From contig NZ_BOPC01000007.1 in NCBI RefSeq assembly GCF_016863555.1, positions 1-64,000 of the forward strand: a DNA stretch of 64,000 nucleotides, given 5' to 3'. Position numbers and translations under genes: made by a program. Of the stretch, positions 17,396 through 27,356 are shown piece after piece. The notes beneath the pieces were generated by a model, which searched no databases, was not told the origin of the DNA, and saw nothing but the letters and a program-made list of their open reading frames with translations. This stretch comes from Micromonospora qiuiae. GTDB taxonomy: Bacteria > Actinomycetota > Actinomycetes > Mycobacteriales > Micromonosporaceae. How positions within the stretch are numbered: the stretch's first letter is position 1; every line of letters begins with the position of its first letter.

Positions 17396-18565
17396 TCAGC
17401 TGTCGCGATCGGCGGGCCGGCCCGGGCTGGACTCCACCGCGTCGCCGTCGGCGAGCTCACCGGCCGGCTCTGCGTCACCACTGTCGGCGGCCACACCGTC
17501 GCGGGATGCCGGGTCGCCGGCGATACCGGTTCCGGCGTCGCCGGCGACGGCCTCGGGCGGCGCCTCGCCGGTGCTGCGCCAGTGCCGGAACTGCTCCTCG
17601 CTGACCACCCGGTAGCCCTCCGGCGCGGCCGGCTCGGCGCCGGCCCGCCGCGCCGACAGGTCGAGCTGGGAGACGTCGGAGGTGGCCTCCGGCGCGGTGG
17701 CGGTCGGCACGCCGATCGGGATCAGGTACTCGCGCGGCCCACGGACCCGCAGGAAGTAGAGCAACGCGCCGAGGAACACCAGCGCCGCGGTCCAGACATT
17801 GAGGCGTACGCCGAGGATGGTGTTGGCCTCGTCGGTGCGCATCATCTCGATCCAGAACCGGCCTGCGGTGTAGCCCATCACGTAGAGCGCGAACGCCCGA
17901 CCACGGCCGAGACGCAGCTTGCGGTCGAGGAAGAACACCAGCGCCGCGACCCCGACGTTCCACAGCGCCTCGTAGGCGAAGGTCGGGTGGTAGAGCCCCT
18001 CCTCCAGGATCGGCCGGCCCGCCTCGTCGAGCACCGCCTGCCCACCCACCATCCGGTGGATCTCCAACCCCCAGGGCAGGTCGGTCCGGCCGCCGACGAG
18101 CTCGTTGTTGAACCAGTTGCCGAGCCGCCCGATCGCCTGCGCCAGCGGCAGACCCGGCGCCAGCGCGTCGGCGACCACCACGAACGGGATGCCGAGCTGC
18201 CGGGCGGCGAACCAGGCGCCGACCGCGCCCCCGGCGACCGCACCCCAGATGCCCAGCCCACCCTCGTGGATGAAGAAGACCTTGATCGGGTCACCGCCGA
18301 TGCCGAAATATTTCTCCGGTGAGGTGATCACGTGGTAGATCCGGGCACCGATGATGCCGGCCGGCACCGCCCACAGGGCGATGTCCAGCACCGCACCGGG
18401 GGCCACGCCACGCTGGCGCAGTCGCCGTTCGGTGACCCAGCAGGCCACCACGATGCCGGCGAGGATGCACAGGGCGTACGCCCGGAGCGGAATCGGGCCG
18501 AGATGCCATACGGCGGTGCTCGGGCTGGGGATGGCGGCCAGATACATCGGCGAGGCGAGACTCAC
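17396..18565 (-). CDS. lgt: Prolipoprotein diacylglyceryl transferase
   Basis: First enzyme of lipoprotein maturation: moves diacylglycerol from phosphatidylglycerol to the lipobox Cys at the membrane. Seven hydrophobic segments and the Lgt signature GRLGNWFNNELVGG are present, as are HEGGLGIWG and the conserved YHPTFAYE. 389 residues from the GTG at 18565; an ATG at 18547 is possible. The C-terminal 110 residues (after the last membrane segment) are a hydrophilic Ala/Glu/Gly-rich tail, an extension typical of actinomycete Lgt. Lies just downstream of trpA, as in Streptomyces. The next enzyme, LspA, is at 51.8-52.5 kb. Confidence 0.95.
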   Translation of the reverse strand: MSLASPMYLAAIPSPSTAVWHLGPIPLRAYALCILAGIVVACWVTERRLRQRGVAPGAVLDIALWAVPAGIIGARIYHVITSPEKYFGIGGDPIKVFFIHEGGLGIWGAVAGGAVGAWFAARQLGIPFVVVADALAPGLPLAQAIGRLGNWFNNELVGGRTDLPWGLEIHRMVGGQAVLDEAGRPILEEGLYHPTFAYEALWNVGVAALVFFLDRKLRLGRGRAFALYVMGYTAGRFWIEMMRTDEANTILGVRLNVWTAALVFLGALLYFLRVRGPREYLIPIGVPTATAPEATSDVSQLDLSARRAGAEPAAPEGYRVVSEEQFRHWRSTGEAPPEAVAGDAGTGIAGDPASRDGVAADSGDAEPAGELADGDAVESSPGRPADRDS

Positions 18566-18647
18566 GGATGCAAAGGCTACCGCTGTCACCCCCTGAAACG
18601 TCACCCCGGTCCGCCCGCCCTCCCGGCCCCACCCGCACCCATCCCCG

Positions 18648-18717
18648 CGATCTTGCACTTTTCGTCCCGACAAAATTGGACGATCGTCACATAGGTGCGA
18701 CACAAAGTCCATGATCG
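18648..18717. repeat. Imperfect palindrome between trpA and lgt
   Basis: Outer arms CGATCTTGCACTTTTCGTC and the complement of GACACAAAGTCCATGATCG pair at 15 of 19 positions, around a 32-base AT-richer centre (CAAAATTGGACGATCGTCAC). I recall similar GATCTTGCACTTT elements scattered in Micromonospora genomes. Position suggests a terminator for the trp operon ahead of lgt. Confidence 0.55.
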
Positions 18718-18732: not shown

Positions 18733-19536
18733 TCAGCGGGTGGGGTTGCGCACTCCCTCAGCCAGCTCGGCGCTGACCGCGCGCAGGGCGGAGAGGCCGG
18801 CGGCCTGGTCGGGGGCGTCGAGCAGACAACGGATCAGCGCGCTGCCGACGATCACTCCGTCGGCGTACCCGGCGACGGCGGCGGCCTGCGCGCCGGTGCC
18901 GACACCCAGCCCGACGCCGACCGGCAGGTCGGTGACCGCCCGGACCCGGGAGACCAGCACCGGCGCCGACTGCGAAACCTCGCGTCGCGCGCCGGTCACC
19001 CCCATCAGCGCCGTGGCGTAGACGAAACCCCGGCAGTGCGCCACCGTCATCGCCAGCCGGTCGTCGGTGGAGGAGGGCGCGACCAGGAAAGTGCGGTCCA
19101 GCTCGTACGCGTCCGAGGCGGCCAGCCACTCGTCGGCCTCGTCCGGAATCAGATCCGGGGTGACCAGCCCGGTGCCGCCGGCCGCCGCGAGGTCCCGGGC
19201 GAACGCGTCCACGCCGTACTGCTCGATCGGATTCCAGTAGGTCATCGTGACCACCGGCGCGCCGGTGGCCGCGACCTCCTCGACGATCCGCAGCGCGTCC
19301 CGGGTGCGTACGCCACCGGCCAGGGCGATGTCGCTGGCCCGCTGGATCACCGGGCCGTCCATCACCGGATCGGAGTAGGGAATCTCCAACTCGATCACGT
19401 CGACGCCCGCGGAGACCATCGCCTTCATCGCCGCGATGCTGCCCTCGACAGTCGGGAAACCGGCCGGCATGCAGCCGACCAGCACCGCGCGTCCGTCCGT
19501 CCGGGCCTTGTCGAAGACGACCCCGATCCGACTCAT
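18733..19536 (-). CDS. trpA: Tryptophan synthase alpha subunit
   Basis: 267 residues. Cleaves indole-3-glycerol phosphate to indole plus glyceraldehyde 3-phosphate and channels indole to TrpB. The catalytic motif ELEIPYSDPVMDGPVIQ is complete (Glu and Asp acid/base pair), and the phosphate-binding VGLGVGTGAQAAAV and DGVIVGSALI are present. Starts at ATG 6 bases after the trpB stop. Last gene of the trp run; lgt follows after a palindrome. Confidence 0.97.
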   Translation of the reverse strand: MSRIGVVFDKARTDGRAVLVGCMPAGFPTVEGSIAAMKAMVSAGVDVIELEIPYSDPVMDGPVIQRASDIALAGGVRTRDALRIVEEVAATGAPVVTMTYWNPIEQYGVDAFARDLAAAGGTGLVTPDLIPDEADEWLAASDAYELDRTFLVAPSSTDDRLAMTVAHCRGFVYATALMGVTGARREVSQSAPVLVSRVRAVTDLPVGVGLGVGTGAQAAAVAGYADGVIVGSALIRCLLDAPDQAAGLSALRAVSAELAEGVRNPTR

Positions 19537-19541
19537 GGCCG

Positions 19542-20774
19542 TCACTCCTTGTCGAGGATGCCGAAGTACTCGCCGGCGGTGTGTACGTCCTTGTCGCCCC
19601 GGCCGGAGAGGTTGACCACGATGGTGGGCTGCCGGCCCAGCTCGGCGGCGAGCTCTCCGGCGACGGCCAGGGTGCCGGCGAGGGCGTGCGCGCTCTCGAT
19701 CGCGGGAATGATCCCCTCGGTGCGGCACAGCAGCTCGAACGCCGCCATCGCCTCGGCGTCGGTGACCGGCCGGTAGCTGGCCCGGCCGGTGTCGTGCAGC
19801 CAGGCGTGCTCCGGCCCCACCCCCGGGTAGTCCAGCCCGGCGGAGATCGAGTGCGACTCCTGCGTCTGGCCGTCGGCGTCCTGGAGCACGTAGGTGCGGG
19901 TGCCGTGCAGCACGCCGGCGGAGCCGCCGGTGATGCTGGCCGCGTGCCGGCCGGTGGCCACGCCGTCGCCGCCCGCCTCGAAGCCGTAGAGCCGCACCTG
20001 CGGGTCGTCGGTGAAGGCGTGGAAGATGCCCAGCGCGTTGGAACCACCGCCGACGCAGGCGGTGACCGCGTCCGGCAGCGCGCCGGTCAGCTCCAGGCAC
20101 TGCGCCCGCGCCTCGTCGCCGATGCCCCGGACGAAGTCGCGGACCAGCGCCGGGAACGGGTGCGGCCCGGCGGCGGTGCCGATCAGGTAGTGCGTGTCGT
20201 CGACGTTGGCGACCCAGTCCCGCATCGCCTCGTTCATCGCGTCCTTGAGCGTGCGCGAGCCGTTCGTCACCGGTACGACCGTGGCGCCGAGCATCCGCAT
20301 CCGGGCCACGTTCAACGCCTGCCGCTCGGTGTCCACCTGCCCCATGTAGACCACGCAGCCCAGGTCGAACAGAGCGGCGGCGGTGGCGGTCGCGACACCG
20401 TGCTGACCCGCGCCGGTCTCGGCGATCACCCGCTTCTTGCCCATCCGCCGGGTCAGCAGCGCCTGGCCGAGCACGTTGCGCACCTTGTGCGCGCCGGTGT
20501 GGTTGAGGTCCTCCCGCTTGAGCAGCACCCGGGCGCCGGCCCTCGCGGAGAACCGGCGGGCTTCGTACAGCAGCGACGGGGTGCCCGCGTAGTCACGCAG
20601 CAGGGCGGCGAACTCGGCCTGGAACTGCTCGTCGGCCATTGCCGCGCGGTGCGCGGCGGCCAACTCGTCGAGGGCGGCGACCAGCGCCTCCGGCACGAAG
20701 CGACCGCCGAAGCGACCGAAGTGACCGGCCGCGTCGGGGAACCGCGCCGGAGCGGCCAACGCGTCAGCGCTCAT
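19542..20774 (-). CDS. trpB: Tryptophan synthase beta subunit
   Basis: 410 residues. PLP enzyme joining indole and serine. The PLP lysine is in HTGAHKVRN, the conserved glutamate and glycine loop in [11 protein letters not shown], and the phosphate-binding GGGSNALG are all seen. ATG start. Lies between trpC (33-base gap) and trpA (5-base gap) on one transcript. Confidence 0.97.
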
Positions 20775-20807: not shown

Positions 20808-21671
20808 TCAGCGCACCGGACGGGGCGTCGCGGGGTGGTTGCCGGCGTTGACCAGCTCGGCCACCGCCTCGCGGGGGCTCTTCTGGGTGACCAGGCCCTC
20901 GCCGACCAGCACCGCGTCGGCGCCGGCCGAGGCGTACCGGATGAGGTCGTGCGGGCCGCGTACGCCGGACTCGGCGATCTTGACGATGCTGCTCGGCAGA
21001 CCGGGCGCGATCCGCTCGAACGCGGACCGGTCGACCTCGAGGGTACGCAGATCGCGGGCGTTGACCCCGATCACCTGCGCGCCAGCCTCCAGGGCCCGGT
21101 CGGCCTCCTCCTCGTCGTGCACCTCGACCAGCGCGGTCATGCCCAGCGACTCGATCCGCTCCAGCAGGCCGACCAGGGCGTTCTGCTCCAACGCGGCCAC
21201 GATCAGCAGCACCAGGTCGGCGCCGTACGCGCGGGCCTCGTGCACCTGGTAGCTGGAGACCACGAAGTCCTTGCGTAGCACCGGGACCTTCACCGCAGCC
21301 CGCACGGCCGCGAAATCCTCCAGTGATCCGCCGAACCAGCGCCCCTCGGTGAGCACGCTGATGGCGCGGGCACCGCCGGCAGCGTACTCACCGGCCAACT
21401 CCGCCGGGTCGGCGATCTCGGCCAACTTGCCCTTCGACGGCGAGGCGCGCTTCACCTCGGCGATGACCGCGACGCCCGGCTGACGCAGGGCCGCGTACGC
21501 GTCCAGCGGCGGTGCCGCAGCGGCGGCCAGTTCGCGGATCCGCTCCAGCGGAACCTGCTCCTGCCGCCGGGCCACGTCCTCCCGGACACCGGCCAGGATC
21601 TCGTCGAGCACGCCGAGGGACGCCGTCGTACCGGCCTGGTTCCCCTCCGCGTGCGCATGCTCAGCAGTCAC
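20808..21671 (-). CDS. trpC: Indole-3-glycerol phosphate synthase
   Basis: 287 residues from the GTG at 21671, which has AGGGGAG 8 bases upstream; an ATG at 21698 lacks a ribosome site but has TAGCAT upstream, so a leaderless start there is the alternative. TIM barrel with the catalytic set [23 protein letters not shown] and [11 protein letters not shown]. Works on the product of the TrpF step, which in this organism is expected from PriA (41.5-42.3 kb). The N-terminus carries an extra His/Ala-rich stretch of about 15 residues compared with shorter IGPS proteins. Confidence 0.95.
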
Positions 21672-22050
21672 CAACGGACTCCCCTCTCCGGGCGTCATGG
21701 GCCGATGCTAGGGGGCTCTACCTGGCACCGGGCGGTGGGGGTATGGCGCTCCTCACCAAATGGACTGCGGCATAATGGCCGACTTGCGCGAACGCGTTGT
21801 AACTCTACGTCACCACGCCATCGATAGTCGCCCATACCGAGGCCCGTCCCGCGTCCGCCCGCCGGCAACGTCACGACCGTCGTCGATGCTGTGAGAAAGC
21901 TCAAGGACCAAGGGACCTTCGCCTGCTCACAGGGCTTACCGCAGAGTTGATGAGGCAGTCATCACCAGGAAACCCGAGTCGACCACCATTCTCCTCGGGC
22001 AGACTCAGTCACGCGCCTGCCCCACCACGCCGATCTCCTCCGGAGTGACC
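21672..22050. other. Divergent intergenic region upstream of trpC
   Basis: 379 bases between trpC (minus) and the small gene at 22051 (plus). I looked on both strands for a trp leader peptide with consecutive Trp codons and for a T-box and found neither. CATAAT at 21771-21776 on the plus strand is the best -10-like hexamer, but no -35 fits. A trpC promoter is expected because the preceding gene on the minus strand is separated by the plus-strand gene at 22051. Confidence 0.4.
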
Positions 22051-22302
22051 ATGAGCTCCTCCGCCCCGCAACAAACCATCGGACTCACCACCATCTCGCG
22101 TACCGTCGTATCGCTCGCCGTCGGTGTCGTACACACCCTGGAACGCGCCGTGGTCGGGCCGGATCGGATGCGGACCGCGCAGGGCAACGCCTGGGAGGCC
22201 ATCTGCGCCGACCGGGCCCGCGCCGACCGGCGGGCGGCCCTGGACCGGCTGGTGGCCGAACTCGCCGCGGCCCGGGCCCGCGACCGGCAGCCGGTCAGCT
22301 GA
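22051..22302 (+). CDS. Hypothetical protein, 83 aa
   Basis: ATG at 22051 with CCGGAG upstream; a GTG at 22045 is in frame. An N-terminal hydrophobic stretch (TVVSLAVGVVHTLERAVVG) is followed by an Arg/Ala-rich helix (RARADRRAALDRLVAEL). I do not recognise it. Its 3' end overlaps the end of the opposing trpM-like gene by 8 bases. It interrupts the trp run by lying between trpM and trpC on the other strand. Confidence 0.6.
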   Translation: MSSSAPQQTIGLTTISRTVVSLAVGVVHTLERAVVGPDRMRTAQGNAWEAICADRARADRRAALDRLVAELAAARARDRQPVS

Positions 22303-22846
22303 CCGTCGGATCCTCGCCCCGGTCCAGCGCGTCCCACGCGTCGACCGTGCCGCGCCCGCCGACCGGGCCACCCGCCGCCGGCCGGTTCGACGGCCGCTCG
22401 TAGCGGGCACCCATCGCCGGCCAGCGGTGGCCCCGCAGCGCGGTCAACAGCCCGCCGGCTGCGGCCAACAGCCCGCCGAGCAGGCAGATCGCCGGCCACT
22501 GCCAGTCGAACCCGCCACTGCGGTCGGCGACCAGCCCGTCACCGCCACCGGCCGCCAGCGCCAGGCCGAGCAGCGCGAGCAGCCCGCCCAACACCCGGCG
22601 CAGCCAGCCCCGGGTCGCCAACACCGCGCCCCCGCCGGCCAACCCGACCAGAGCCAGCGCCCACAGCCAAGGCAGCAACTGCCGCCCGGTCCGTCCCTCG
22701 GTCACCAACGGCATCGGATCCTGGCGGACGATCTCGCCCGTCTCCCAGGCGAGCGTCGCCGTCCAGGCGGCCAGGCCCGCCCCGGCCAGACAGAGCAGCA
22801 CGGCGTACGCCAACTCGCGCCGGCCCGCTGCGTTCCTCGCGCTCAC
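22295..22846 (-). CDS. Trp biosynthesis-associated membrane protein
   Basis: 183 residues of the TIGR02234 family, an actinobacterial membrane protein regularly found between trpE and trpC (called TrpM or Trp region protein). Four hydrophobic segments can be picked out (LAYAVLLCLAGAGLAAWTA, LLPWLWALALVGLAGGG, then VLGGLLALLGLALAA and WPAICLLGGLLAAAGGLL). Its role is not settled; influence on tryptophan or regulation has been proposed for Streptomyces. The start is a GTG inside the repeated GTGAGCGCGAGG sequence, so the N-terminal residues (VSARNAA) are encoded by the repeat at 22836-22966. Confidence 0.88.
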   Translation of the reverse strand: MSARNAAGRRELAYAVLLCLAGAGLAAWTATLAWETGEIVRQDPMPLVTEGRTGRQLLPWLWALALVGLAGGGAVLATRGWLRRVLGGLLALLGLALAAGGGDGLVADRSGGFDWQWPAICLLGGLLAAAGGLLTALRGHRWPAMGARYERPSNRPAAGGPVGGRGTVDAWDALDRGEDPTVS

Positions 22847-22966
22847 GGGATCCACCTTCGCTCGCGACTGCGAGGCTCGCAAACCCGGCTCACTCCTCGC
22901 GCTCACCGGCCCACCTTCGTTCGCGACTGCGAGGCTCGCAAACCCGGCTCACTCCTCGCGCTCACC
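22836..22966 (-). repeat. Tandem GTGAGCGCG junction element, trpE/trpM
   Basis: A unit of 59-60 bases is present twice, plus the shared end: CTCGCGCTCAC recurs at 22836, 22896 and 22955 (plus-strand reading), each followed by CACCTTCG(C/T)TCGCGACTGCG and GAGGCTCGCAAACCCGGCTC. On the minus strand each boundary reads GGTGAGCGCGAGG. The first boundary holds the TGA stop of trpE; the last holds the GTG start of trpM. A related single element is at 30661-30723. Confidence 0.8.
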
Positions 22967-24515
22967 GGGCCGGCCTGAGGGTTTCGGCGGCGGCGATGGC
23001 CGCCAGCACCGCGGCTGCCTTGTTCCGGGTCTCCTGATCCTCCGCGGCCGGGTCGGAGTCGGCCACCACACCCGCACCGGCCTGCACGTAGGCCCGTCCG
23101 TCGCGGATCAGCGCGGTACGGATCGCGATGGCCATGTCGAGGTCGCCGCCGAAGCCGAAGTAGCCGACCGTACCGCCGTAGAGGCCGCGGCGTACCGGCT
23201 CCAACTCCTCAATGATCTCCATGGCCCGTACCTTCGGCGCACCGGAGAGGGTGCCGGCGGGGAACGTCGCGGCGAGCGCGTCGAAGGCGGTGCGGTCCGC
23301 GCGGAGCGTGCCGACCACCGTCGAGACGATGTGCATGACGTGGCTGTACCGCTCGATGGTGGCGAACTCCGGTACCTCGACGCTGCCCGGCCGGCAGACC
23401 CGACCCAGGTCGTTGCGGCCCAGGTCGACCAGCATCACGTGCTCGGCCCGTTCCTTCGGGTCGGCCAGCAGTTCGGCGGCGAGCCGAGCGTCGGCCTCGG
23501 GCGTCGCGCCGCGCGGCCGGGTGCCGGCGATCGGGTGCAGCAGCGCCCGCCGCTCGCCGTCGGCCTCTCCGGTCACCTTCAGATGCGCCTCCGGCGACGA
23601 ACCGACGATGTCGAAACCGTCGAAGCGCAGCAGGTACATGTAGGGGCTGGGATTGGTGGTCCGCAGCACCCGGTAGACGTCCAACGGATCGGCGTCGGTG
23701 TCGCGTTCGAAGCGCTGGGCGAGCACGATCTGGAAGCACTCGCCGGCCCGGATCGCCTCCTTGGCCGCCTCGACCGCCTTCGGGTAGCCGCCGTCCGGAG
23801 TGCGGCTGCGCACCTTGCCGGCCGGCGAACGACGGACCGTGGCGACCATCGGCGGGATGGGCCGCGACAACGCGGTGGTCATCGCGTCGAGCCGGCCCAC
23901 CGCGTGGTGGTAGGCGGCGGCGACCAGCGCCTCGCGGCCCGGTTCCTCCGGCGGCGGCAGAATGGCGTTGGCGATCAGGATCGCCGAGCCGTCGAAGTGG
24001 TCCAGCACCACCAGGTCGGTGGCGAGCAGCATGCCCAGCTCGGGCAGGCGCAGGTCGTCCTCGGTGAGCGTGGGCAACCGCTCGAAGCGGCGGATCAGGT
24101 CGTAGCCGAGGTAACCGACCATGCCCCCGGTCAGCGGGGGCAGCCCGGCGTCCGGGTCGCCGGGCGGGCCGGCCAGCGCCGCCACCGTCTCCCGCAGCAC
24201 CCGGATCGGGTCGCCGGTGGTCGGCAGCCCGGCCGGCGGCGTACCGAGCCAGGCGGCGGCGCCGTCCCGCTCGATCAGGGTGGCGCTGCTGCGTACGCCG
24301 ACGAAGGAGTATCGGGACCAGGTCAGCCCCGACGAGCCAACGCCCTGCTCGGCCGACTCCAACAGGAAGGTCCCGGGGCCGCCGGCCAGCTTGCGGTAGA
24401 CGCCGACCGGGGTCTCCGCGTCGGCGAGCAGTCGCCGGGTCACCGGCACCACCCGCCAGCGGGCAGCGAGTTCGGTGAAAGCCGCCAGATCCGGGCTCAC
24501 CACGCCGTCGCTCAC
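22962..24515 (-). CDS. trpE: Anthranilate synthase component I
   Basis: 517 residues. Converts chorismate and ammonia to anthranilate, with the TrpG amidotransferase supplied from elsewhere (none in the window). The tryptophan feedback site LLES is present ([10 protein letters not shown], residues about 49-58). The catalytic core is complete: [40 protein letters not shown] and [23 protein letters not shown] start with CGGAG upstream. Ends in the GTGAGCGCG element. Chorismate route to Trp; feedback inhibition is therefore likely. Confidence 0.97.
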
Positions 24516-24561
24516 GCCGACACTCCGCTCTGCTCCCTGCCGCCGCGCACGGTTCGCTCGC

Positions 24562-24996
24562 TCACGACGTCACCTCCCCGGAGGAGGTCACCGGGAGTTG
24601 GGTGAAGAAGCAGCTGCGGTGCCCGGTGTGGCAGGCGGCACCGACCTGGTCGACGCTGACCAGCACGGCGTCGCCGTCGCAGTCGAGCGCCACCGAGCGG
24701 ACGTACTGGTGGTGACCGGAGGTGGCGCCCTTCACCCAGTACTCGCGCCGGCTGCGCGACCAGTAGGTGGCCCGCCCGGTGGTCAGGGTGCGGTGCAGGG
24801 CCTCGTCGTCCATCCATGCCACCATCAGCACCTCGCCGCTGTCGTGCTGACGGACCACGGCGGCCACCAGACCGTCGGGGGTGCGCCGCAGCCGGGCGGC
24901 GATCGCCGGATCGAGCCGGGACGGCCGGTCACCGCCGTCGGTCGGCTCCGGCGCTTCGAGGTGGGCGCCGGTCACCGGCGCGTCAGGTACGGACAC
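24562..24996 (-). CDS. hisI: Phosphoribosyl-AMP cyclohydrolase
   Basis: Third step of histidine synthesis. The domain is complete (about 115 residues): [20 protein letters not shown], then [12 protein letters not shown], the metal-binding [15 protein letters not shown] and the CHTGHRSCF cysteine pair. Proposed start GTG at 24996 ([10 protein letters not shown]), because GACAAT lies 8 bases upstream, a good -10 for a leaderless message. However, the same frame runs on upstream without a stop through a nucleotidyltransferase-like domain (next entry), so a fused product is also possible. HisE and HisG are not in the window. Confidence 0.85.
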
Positions 24997-25863
24997 AGTG
25001 AGCCATTGTCCCGCACGGGGAGCGGGCACCCCAGCGGGCTCCCGGCTGGCGGACGGCGGCGCGCCGACCGGCTGGGCCAACTGCGTTACGTAGCGGTCCA
25101 GGCGGCCGTCGAGAAGGGCATCGGCGAAATCCGGGCCGGCCGCCTCGGCCACCTCGGCGACGTACGGGCGGATCAACGGGATGGTGCCGGTCACCAGCCG
25201 GGCCGCCGCCGCCCACAGCTCGCCGATCGGGCCGGGCCGGATCCCGAGGCAGCGCAACATGTCCTCGCGGTAGCCGGCCGGCGCGACCGGCAGGTCGAGC
25301 GCGGCGGCGAACGCCGACCGGCGGGACACCACCCGGACCGACGGGTTCGCCAGCCGCAGCACCGACGGGCAGAGCCGGGCCAGGTCGGCGGCGGCCAGTC
25401 GGAGCCCCAGCGAGTCGTCGGCGTCGCGGGCCGAGGCCACCTTGCCGAGGGTGGCGATCAGCTCCTCCAGCCGTGGCTCGTCCGCCGGCTGGCAGAGCAC
25501 CGGCAGGTCGATCCGGTCACGCCAGTACGGATCCGCCCAGAGCAGGCGGGCGGGCGCCGCCACGGGCAGCCCGAACGCCCAGTCGGCCGGCTCGCCCAGC
25601 CGGATCACCCAGGAGCGGACGTCCCGGGCGGCCACCGAGACGTGGGTCAGCCGGCCGCAGTGCTCCGCGAGGTAGGCCCGGCGGGCCGCGTACGGTGCCC
25701 CGCCGACCAGCACGTCGACGTCGACATCGCTGTGTGCGGTGGCGGCCCGGCGGGCGTGGCTACCCCGCAGGAGGATGCCCACCACAGGTCGGTCGGCGGT
25801 CATGCGCAGCCGCGCGGCCCAGTCGTCGAGAAACCCGCTTTCCGGTGACCGAGCGTGATCCAC
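24562..25863 (-). CDS. Nucleotidyltransferase-fold protein in frame with HisI
   Basis: One open frame of 433 residues from the GTG at 25863 (or 460 from an ATG at 25944) to the HisI stop. Residues about 25-55 carry the nucleotidyltransferase signature [10 protein letters not shown]...[10 protein letters not shown] (GS then DxDxD), as in MNT/KNT-like enzymes. A helical region to about residue 260 follows, then a 30-residue Pro/Ala linker, then HisI. The start at 25863 is favoured by a promoter: TTGCAC, 17 bases, CACGAT, 6 bases, GTG. Either the upstream gene has lost its stop and is fused, or HisI is also made alone from its own start at 24996. Substrate of the transferase unknown. Confidence 0.6.
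25005..25010 (-). promoter_or_regulatory. Likely -10 box for a leaderless hisI transcript
   Basis: GACAAT on the minus strand, 8 bases before the GTG at 24996. No clear -35 is seen upstream, where a GC-rich stretch (CCCCGTGCGGG) can form a small stem. Confidence 0.4.
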
Positions 25864-25869
25864 CGCGCC

Positions 25870-25898
25870 ATCGTGCCGTACGTCCGTTCGGGGTGCAA
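25870..25898 (-). promoter_or_regulatory. Promoter of the nucleotidyltransferase-HisI frame
   Basis: TTGCAC (25893-25898), a 17-base spacer and CACGAT (25870-25875), with the GTG start 6 bases further on, implying a leaderless message. Confidence 0.5.
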
Positions 25899-26008
25899 TG
25901 ACCGGTGACGGACCTGGTGTCCGGTCTGAAGGGCCGTTGCCCATGATATAAGGATGTGACCCTCAGTGACGATTTCTCCGGAGCCCGCCGGGTGGCCCTT
26001 CGGCGTTG

Positions 26009-26404
26009 TCAGTCCCGCCCATCACCCAGCTCAGCTCGGCGATAGGCGTCGATCTTGAAGTCGAGCACCTTGAGGTCCTCCGTCAGCTCCGCCATCCGCC
26101 GCAGCACCCGAGCCCGGTGCTCCTCGAACAACGCCCGCCGCTCGCCGAGGGTGCCGTCGCCCTGCCGGGCCAGCTCGACGTAGCGGCGCATGTCGCGTAC
26201 CGACATTCCGGTGCGGCGCAGCCGGGTGAGCAGCAGCAGCCAGTCCACGTCCTGCTGGGTGTAGCGGCGGCGTCCGGCAGAGTCGCGGGCGGGCGGGGCA
26301 ACCAGCCCCTCCTGCTCGTACCAGCGCAAGGTGTAGGTGCTCAGGCCGACCTGTTCGGCTGCCTCGCTGACCGCGAAGGTCCTCTCCCGCGTACGGATGT
26401 CCAT
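26009..26404 (-). CDS. MerR-family transcriptional regulator
   Basis: 131 residues from the ATG at 26404. Winged helix-turn-helix with the MerR pattern FAVSEAAEQVGLSTYTLRWY, EQEGLV, and RRRYTQQDVDWLLLLTRLR (residues about 7-75), then a dimerisation helix (RALFEEHRARVLRRMAELTE) without an obvious metal-binding Cys set, so a small organic or redox signal is more likely than a metal. The same frame extends upstream to 26566, but that part is translated repeat (element copy B) and is not credible. It is divergent from the ABC transporter operon at 26610. Confidence 0.88.
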   Translation of the reverse strand: MDIRTRERTFAVSEAAEQVGLSTYTLRWYEQEGLVAPPARDSAGRRRYTQQDVDWLLLLTRLRRTGMSVRDMRRYVELARQGDGTLGERRALFEEHRARVLRRMAELTEDLKVLDFKIDAYRRAELGDGRD

Positions 26405-26495
26405 CCATCCAGGGTCACAGTAGGCGTCAAGCCCGTCGATGGCGTGTCGATGGCCGGTGGACGGTCCGCGCGCGGCGCCGGGCGCTGCCTCCGAA

Positions 26496-26553
26496 GTGTT
26501 AGGAGGGGGCCCTTTTACCTCACCAGGCGTTAAAAAGGGCCCCTTCCTTTCAC
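26496..26553 (-). repeat. Dispersed GGGCCC element, copy B
   Basis: 58 bases, starting GTGTTAGGAGG and ending CCTTTCAC on the plus strand, with AGGCGTTAA in the middle. It lies in the divergent space between merR and the ABC operon. It shares the flank CCGAAGTGTTA with copy C. Confidence 0.8.
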
Positions 26554-26558
26554 GTCGG

Positions 26559-26596
26559 GATTTCATCTAGTGTTGATTTCATCGGTAGTTGAAATC
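26559..26596 (+). promoter_or_regulatory. Operator candidate ahead of the ABC-TetR operon
   Basis: GATTTCATC occurs at 26559-26567 and 26575-26583, and the inverted TGAAATC at 26590-26596. The last two form a 22-base palindrome (7-base arms, 8-base spacer). It stands 14 bases before the ATG of the ATPase gene, over its ribosome site region, and fits a dimeric regulator such as the TetR protein encoded by the third gene. Confidence 0.5.
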
Positions 26597-26609
26597 TTGG
26601 AGGTGGGCG

Positions 26610-27356
26610 ATGGAAGACGCCATCGTCGTCCGCGGCCTGGTGGTGGACCGGGGCGGCCGGCGGGTACTGGACGGGATCGACGCCACGGTGCCCCGCGGCT
26701 CGGTCACCGGGCTGCTGGGGCCCAGCGGAAGCGGCAAGACGACGCTGATGCGCGCGATCGTCGGGGTCCAGGTGATCACCGGTGGCACGGTCACCGTGCT
26801 GGGTGCACCGGCCGGCTCGGCGCAGCTGCGGCACCGGGTGGGTTACCTGACCCAGGCGCCGAGCGTCTACGCCGACCTGACCGTACGGGAGAACGTGCGC
26901 TACTTTGCCGCCCTGCAGGGCCGTGGCCGGGCCGAGGCGGACCGGGCGATGACCGACGTCGGGCTGGCGTCGGCGGCCGGGCAGCTGGTCGGCACGCTCT
27001 CCGGCGGGCAGCGCAGCCGCGCGTCGCTGGCCTGCGCCCTGGTCGGCGAGCCGGAGCTGATCGTGCTCGACGAGCCCACCGTCGGCCAGGACCCGGTTCT
27101 GCGGGCCGACCTCTGGGCCCGGTTCCACGAGCTGGCCAACGCCGGCACAGCCCTGCTGGTGTCGAGTCACGTGATGGACGAGGCGGCCCGCTGCGACCGG
27201 CTGCTTCTCATCCGCGAGGGTCGGCTGATCGCCGACGACACCCCGGCGGCGGTTCGCGCCGCCGCCGGAGTCGACGATCTCGACGAGGCGTTCCTACGGC
27301 TGATCAGAGCGGGCGAGGCCGGCGGTCCGGCCGGCTCGGCAGCAGGGGAGGCATGA
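26610..27356 (+). CDS. ABC transporter ATP-binding protein
   Basis: 248 residues; ATG with GGAGGTGGG upstream. Complete nucleotide-binding domain: Walker A GPSGSGKTT (about 38-46), Q-loop in YLTQAPSVYADLTV, signature LSGGQRSRASLACALV, Walker B LIVLDEPTVGQDP and H-loop SSHVMDE. Resembles the drug/antibiotic exporters of the ABC-2 class (DrrA-like). Forms a transporter with the next gene, overlapped by 4 bases (ATGA). The operon also encodes a TetR regulator, which suggests export induced by a toxic compound. Confidence 0.92.
   Translation: MEDAIVVRGLVVDRGGRRVLDGIDATVPRGSVTGLLGPSGSGKTTLMRAIVGVQVITGGTVTVLGAPAGSAQLRHRVGYLTQAPSVYADLTVRENVRYFAALQGRGRAEADRAMTDVGLASAAGQLVGTLSGGQRSRASLACALVGEPELIVLDEPTVGQDPVLRADLWARFHELANAGTALLVSSHVMDEAARCDRLLLIREGRLIADDTPAAVRAAAGVDDLDEAFLRLIRAGEAGGPAGSAAGEA

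Follow-up and report, generated by a model that had tools for sequence, protein, structure and literature searches.

In Micromonospora qiuiae, an ANT(4')-II-like nucleotidyltransferase domain (NT) and the histidine biosynthesis enzyme HisI are encoded in one open reading frame. Comparison with related genomes makes it likely that the two domains are genuinely fused and that hisI, with its ancestral promoter, is nested in the fusion frame, so that a 433-residue and a 144-residue protein would both be made from this frame. The frame is located on the reverse strand (24562-25944 (-)) of the analyzed stretch of 64,000 nucleotides, referred to here as the window, and is open for 460 codons. A previous sequence-only reading had described it as running from NT to HisI without a stop codon, which is borne out by the absence of a stop between the domains. 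The promoter-like boxes named there are likewise correctly placed, both on the NT side (TTGCAC at 25898-25893, 17 bases, CACGAT at 25875-25870, then GTG 25863) and inside the frame (GACAAT at 25010-25005, then GTG 24996), and the proposed product sizes of 433 and 144 residues equal the frame lengths from GTG 25863 and GTG 24996. That reading had considered a true fusion and, alternatively, two products from a single frame. Both are supported, and the sequences of the relatives favour both at once, with one frame for two proteins being the better supported option.

Table 1. Features of the NT-HisI locus and of the genes downstream of it, in window coordinates
Feature	Position	Strand	Basis or remark
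Long product NT-linker-HisI, 433 codons (predicted)	24562..25863	-	leaderless-type GTG 25863; start motif in 120/128 genus loci
Short product HisI alone, 144 codons (predicted)	24562..24996	-	GTG 24996 = codon 317 of the 460-codon frame
NT domain, ANT(4')-II-like, residues 41-288	25081..25824	-	PF18280, NF028535 (below cut-off), 4ebj match, Foldseek, pN/pS
Nucleotidyltransferase motif GSHARR..HSDVDVD, residues 61-77	25714..25764	-	conserved residues in 128 genus loci
Linker, residues 289-343, disordered	24916..25080	-	pN/pS, pLDDT
DNA-conserved block in linker, codons 310-326, putative embedded hisI promoter and start	24967..25017	-	low synonymous divergence; also found where NT is lacking and in other genera
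-10-like hexamer GACAAT of the putative embedded hisI promoter	25005..25010	-	GACAAT/GAGAAT counts
Putative internal GTG start codon of short HisI	24994..24996	-	codon 317 conservation
PRA-CH (HisI) catalytic domain, residues 374-447	24604..24825	-	PF01502; invariant residues
Promoter-like TTGCAC-17-CACGAT of the long product	25870..25898	-	related motif in 120/128 genus loci
27-codon upstream extension of the frame	25864..25944	-	closed by stops in some relatives
trpE, next gene downstream	22962..24515	-	profile match
Trp_oprn_chp (trp-associated membrane protein)	22295-22906	-	downstream of trpE
trpC	20808-21698	-	downstream of Trp_oprn_chp
trpB	19542-20774	-	downstream of trpC
trpA	about 18733-19530	-	downstream of trpB
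lgt-like gene	17396-18712	-	downstream of trpA; scores 339 against a cut-off of 636

The NT-HisI frame and its conservation

The NT part matches PF18280 (Ant-IIb_sub-bd) at residues 158-260 with 131 bits (cut-off 27), and the ANT(4')-IIb structure 4ebj was retrieved both at the sequence level, with an E value of 5e-35 and the GS..DxD motif aligned, and by Foldseek, with a TM-score on the target of 0.84 and about 35% identity to NT. Since NF028535, which represents the ANT(4')-II subfamily, scores 129.3 bits against a cut-off of 350, we describe NT as similar to the ANT(4')-II family but do not assign it to this family. Residues G61, S62, D73, D75 and D77 are each conserved at 0.99 or above across 128 genus loci, and the pN/pS of NT is 0.34 (this and all further pN and pS values stem from a random 40 of the 128 genus genomes). 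By these measures, the NT part is kept by selection with its catalytic motif intact, and, as the G-S pair and the three aspartates are conserved to at least 0.99, it is probably an active enzyme. The pN/pS value led us to reject a pseudogene, and a type VII MntA antitoxin was rejected as well (NF047752, 17.8 bits against a cut-off of 60).

The HisI part matches PF01502 (PRA-CH) with 114.6 bits (cut-off 27) and scores 177.9 against the cut-off of 126 for NF000768 (HisI); this frame contains the sole PRA-CH match in the M. qiuiae genome. Residues D394, C395, D396, D398, C411 and C418 (433-residue numbering) are invariant in 47 sequences, and the DxDxD motif and the three cysteines are presumably the metal-ligand residues. 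A pN/pS of 0.14 indicates strong constraint on HisI. No Pfam match to a HisE domain was found in the fusion, and its score for HisIE membership stays below the cut-off (NF002747, 131 against 187, reached through the HisI part alone). In an AlphaFold model, the NT part is of fair to good quality and the HisI part of poor quality, so that the model says nothing on the relative placement of the two halves. The first 27 residues of the frame, from ATG 25944 to GTG 25863, are not conserved among relatives, in some of which (L006 and L015 are examples) the open frame starts just 7-8 codons ahead of the NT start, and this extension is probably not translated. No intrinsic terminator between NT and HisI was found in 24400-26100. 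An RNA switch near the cluster was rejected, since nothing in 22000-27000 reached the gathering score of an Rfam family, and so was a defence system, for which PADLOC gave just two weak hits (the best 3.4e-5 over 39 residues).

Named relatives belong to Micromonospora, Verrucosispora and Plantactinospora. Among 160 genus genomes searched, NT is present in 135 and HisI in 157. Both domains occur in 138 loci (L001 and L026-L031 were left out of this count), where they are adjacent in 137 and share one open frame in 136; of these 136 loci, 129 (counting the window) belong to the genus and 7 to two neighbouring genera. These counts represent related species and not independent events. The two exceptions are the locus of genome G205, which belongs to a different genus and has the genes 3.2 kb apart, and that of genome G111, which carries a one-base shift. 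Whether the frame is kept open in close relatives had been proposed as a check of the fusion, and it is open in 129 of the 135 NT-bearing genus genomes. The other six are G111 and five fragmentary or split cases, with the parts at contig ends or on separate contigs (G009, G023, G066) or with partial matches only (G105, G014). In G111 (locus L117, single-contig assembly), a single base is deleted in a run of C after GTG 317 and the upstream part is in register; the shift is probably a sequencing error, and it is no sign of separate genes because a deletion after GTG 317 breaks the short form too. Of the 80 named loci, which overlap the set of 138, 75 carry the fusion and four are cut off by a contig edge; in the remaining one (L177), NT is unfused and terminates at a stop of its own 12 bases past the domain. 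Sister species were searched for a stop separating the domains, which would have spoken against the fusion, and none was seen in the adjacent NT/HisI pairs compared; unfused NT genes with an own stop were seen only in another genus (G205, G249). In G205, the unfused NT and hisI are separated by a long opposite-strand frame containing acidic repeats (L166, 434-3502 (+)), and by eye a similar antisense sequence seems to sit upstream of hisI in L168.

NT appears limited to Micromonospora and three close genera, as far as searched and among the matches listed. An order-wide search detected it in 60 of 397 genomes, 59 of them in the genus plus one weak match of 39 residues; this search was loose, with six candidates scored per genome, and misses the three close genera that have NT. 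Micromonospora is known for aminoglycoside production. The presence of NT in most of its genomes searched would suggest that NT serves a general role rather than protecting individual aminoglycoside producers from their own products. Since NT is absent from 25 of the 160 genus genomes, the fusion is dispensable. On a HisI tree of 148 genus loci (L117 left out), NT presence changes at least nine times, compared to 17-19 times for shuffled labels.

We then considered what the linker tells about the fusion. An open frame alone is no evidence of fusion in GC-rich DNA, where long chance and antisense frames occur: an antisense frame of 457 codons lies opposite the fusion (24475-25848 (+)), and in the NT-less loci L024, L076 and L116 chance frames of more than 460 codons run into HisI. 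The openness of the linker by itself is weak evidence, as its other two frames contain a stop in just 7 and 2 of 127 loci. Adjacent NT/HisI pairs are in register in 136 of 137 cases, while the upstream linker, measured from the NT end to codon 317 in the 135 fused loci with both ends, has 21 different lengths of 54-387 nt. Parsimony on trees built from both domains, with the linker omitted, requires at least 29 length changes, compared to 38-40 for shuffled labels. The 135 loci were chosen as fused, so that lengths in multiples of three are partly expected by construction and 136 of 137 is the unpicked figure; as some changes are moreover repeat units of threes, no simple probability can be given for the register. 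A chance open frame was nevertheless rejected, with the register kept over the length changes and openness alone being insufficient; the kept register, not openness, is the decisive evidence for the fusion. Outside the conserved block described below, the linker has pN/pS values of 0.86 and 0.90, near-neutral as protein, and the pLDDT is below 50 at model residues 267-317, in line with linker disorder. In L162 of the Plantactinospora group, the linker has grown to 459 nt with tandem AQLAEPAQ-type repeats, and similar repeat growth is visible in the Micromonospora loci L089, L097 and L118.

A probable start of hisI inside the frame

A short block within the linker is conserved as DNA and reads CGTGCGGGA[C/G]AAT-N5-AC[T/C]-GTG. 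All 128 aligned genus loci have GTG as its final codon, codon 317; with the neighbouring genera included, this codon is GTG in 129 and ATG in six of the 135 fused loci, all of which match the block pattern, a pattern that itself demands GTG or ATG. Further codons of the block are also kept among the 128 loci (CGT310 in 126, GGA312 in 125, CAA or GAA313 in 128, ACT316 in 104). The GC3 of these genes is 0.93, and the A/T-ending codons of the block are thus rare yet kept. When synonymous divergence was calculated in 422 windows over the 128 genus loci, the ten lowest all fell at codons 309-329, and rank 11 lies inside HisI (371-382). The block has a pN of 0.134 and a pS of 0.133, compared to a pS of 0.38 for the linker; with pN equal to pS, conservation of the block concerns the DNA more than the encoded peptide. 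Loci of other genera were excluded from the codon and synonymous-divergence windows, the pN/pS values, the NT-start motif and the analysis of NT-less starts and the HisI tree, and L134, which is cut by a contig end, was excluded from the codon and synonymous-divergence windows and from the pN/pS, linker-length and NT-start-motif analyses.

The hexamer 8 bases ahead of the start is GACAAT in 71 and GAGAAT in 56 of the 127 loci (of 136 fused) that match the strict pattern. Compared with TAnnnT, the T at position 1 is missing, there is no evident -35 box, and a simple scan for the sigma-70 consensus did not list this -10-like box. According to a study on Actinoplanes, a member of the same family, the -10 motif TAnnnT lies 6.2 +/- 1.1 nt from the transcript start, and transcripts with at most 3 nt before the start codon are classed as leaderless, comprising 14% of CDS (PMC7682106). 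If this spacing is applied, GACAAT would start transcription on the conserved A of AC[T/C]-GTG, giving a 3-nt leader, and CACGAT on the G of GTG 25863. A -10-like box 8 bases ahead of codon 317 fits a near-leaderless start. A conserved internal start combined with a promoter-like box under DNA-level constraint is what would be expected of a nested gene, and both features are found here.

At or near the position of GTG 25863, the motif [C/T]ATTG..GG[A/C]A[C/G]NAT-N6-GTG is present in 120 of 128 genus loci. The sequence CGT[A/G]CGG precedes both boxes in the window. Across the 6.76-Mb genome, the pattern CGTNCGGNANNAT-N5-9-RTG has 9 sites, of which two lie at this locus, and the backwards pattern has none; the forward pattern may mark a class of leaderless promoters. 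The copies at the locus are located at 25005-25017 and 25870-25882 (-), next to 7 other sites in the genome. A sigma-70-like pair TCGTCA-18-TATCAT is found upstream of the NT start at 25943-25972 (-).

The same start is present where NT is absent. We examined 19 of the 25 NT-less genus genomes, and in 19 of 19 loci [A/G]A[C/G]AAT, 8 bases and GTG or ATG precede HisI in frame. Two of these (L081, L098) have an in-frame TGA between box and start, three codons before the start, as compared to none of 127 fused loci, and 9 of the 17 NT-less loci with the strict pattern have a stop within 240 bases upstream, again compared to none of 127. Beyond the genus, an in-frame [A/C/G]A[C/G]AAT-N6-8-RTG was detected ahead of HisI in 19 of 22 other-genus loci of the family, among them L267, the hisI of the unfused G249, and in 5 of 6 loci of other families, while shuffled sequence gives this pattern in at most 1.5% (0.015) in each comparison; the start block was not seen in three of the 22 and one of the 6. 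Fused and NT-less genomes share the box and GTG proposed inside the frame, both conserved at the DNA level, which upholds the two-product idea. As NT presence changes repeatedly on the HisI tree, the block outlives the fusion, and since the same start occurs in NT-less, other-genus and other-family loci, the hisI promoter and start look older, with the fusion laid over them.

Alternative readings and a proposed origin

Two products could also arise if the short one were made by internal translation initiation on the long mRNA and not from an internal promoter. The GAGAAT variants contain GGAG 11 bases before the start, a possible distant ribosome site, but the more frequent GACAAT variants have no GGAG there and the part common to both is A[C/G]AAT; moreover, NT-less genomes retain the block below unrelated upstream sequence. 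We consider this route unlikely. Rather improbable, too, is an obligate fusion, in which one 433-residue bifunctional protein would be the only product and the block a protein motif or an unrelated element. It would account for the frame being kept in 136 of 138 loci and for the peptide PRAGQW-TVPVPDAP that recurs in the linker. The block, however, is conserved at synonymous sites and in rare codons, has a pN equal to its pS, ends in GTG, or ATG in six loci, at codon 317, and persists where NT is gone.

That HisI alone matters, with the NT frame a decaying remnant and the shared frame a product of chance in GC-rich DNA, would agree with the 25 genus genomes in which NT was not found and with its at least nine changes of presence. 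It is nevertheless very improbable in view of the NT pN/pS of 0.34, the GS..DxD motif intact at 0.99 or above and the register, which 136 of 137 adjacent pairs retain despite at least 29 changes in linker length. That a sequencing error joined two separate neighbouring genes can practically be dismissed, since the fused state recurs in single-contig genomes and many assemblies, even though unfused NT genes do exist in G205 (3.2 kb from hisI) and G249.

For the preferred reading, a fusion with nested hisI, we propose the following origin. The hisI of this actinomycete order would start at an old near-leaderless promoter, as its distribution suggests, with a -10-like box ending in A[C/G]AAT and the start codon 6-8 bases on. 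An ANT(4')-II-like nucleotidyltransferase gene would have come to sit just upstream of hisI and lost its own stop in the ancestor that Micromonospora shares with close genera, whereupon the NT frame would read through the hisI promoter into HisI. Since then the fusion frame has stayed open and in register while the linker length varies freely, and the coding frame has preserved the promoter-like start block at the DNA level. The 433-residue NT-HisI would be translated from a leaderless transcript beginning at GTG 25863, and the 144-residue HisI from a near-leaderless one beginning about 3 bases before GTG 24996; the short transcript may also feed the downstream trp genes. In both forms HisI would perform its usual step in histidine synthesis.

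One may further speculate that the locus is a working switch, in which the leaderless promoter that fires sets the ratio of NT-HisI to HisI and the substrate that NT nucleotidylates is either a HisI partner or a metabolite from the histidine/tryptophan branch. We consider this elaboration doubtful; if true, primary metabolism would have co-opted an enzyme fold of the resistance type at the head of the trp operon.

Comparison with known systems

The nested-fusion reading implies a fusion written across a promoter, which would be recognisable as DNA and yet read as a protein linker in about 130 species. The locus offers a way to test how, in leaderless genomes, fusions can come about while the downstream gene stays under control, and an annotation that picks one start would misstate either HisI or the fusion. 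It also places a fold of the aminoglycoside-modifying type inside primary metabolism. In the open-licence full texts searched, we found no description of a HisI-nucleotidyltransferase fusion or of fusions with internal leaderless starts, and neither the domain pairing nor a promoter preserved genus-wide as the linker of a fusion seems to have a precedent in this literature.

Among known proteins, NT is similar to the aminoglycoside 4'-O-adenylyltransferase ANT(4')-IIb (4ebj/4ebk) in its fold, its sequence identity and its GS-x-AR..SD-x-D-x-D motif; it differs in being joined to HisI and in scoring below the subfamily cut-off. The HisI part resembles ordinary HisI, phosphoribosyl-AMP cyclohydrolase (1zps; NF000768), in having the full domain with DCDGD and C..C invariant, but is preceded by another enzyme domain at its N-terminus and has a nested start. 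The hisIE, hisNB, HIS4 and HIS7 fusions likewise combine a his enzyme with another enzyme and show repeated fusion and loss. A 2007 survey of his fusions states that hisIE is lacking in Actinobacteria, although 2.8% is given in its table, and its text does not contain the word nucleotidyltransferase (PMC1963479). The partners in the known his fusions are themselves his enzymes, whereas here the partner is NT and there is no HisE domain. In-frame nested genes, in which a shorter C-terminal protein is made from an internal leaderless start, are a known kind in actinobacteria. Compared to these, the inner gene here would be the ancestral one, and its promoter would have become the coding linker of a later fusion that is kept genus-wide.
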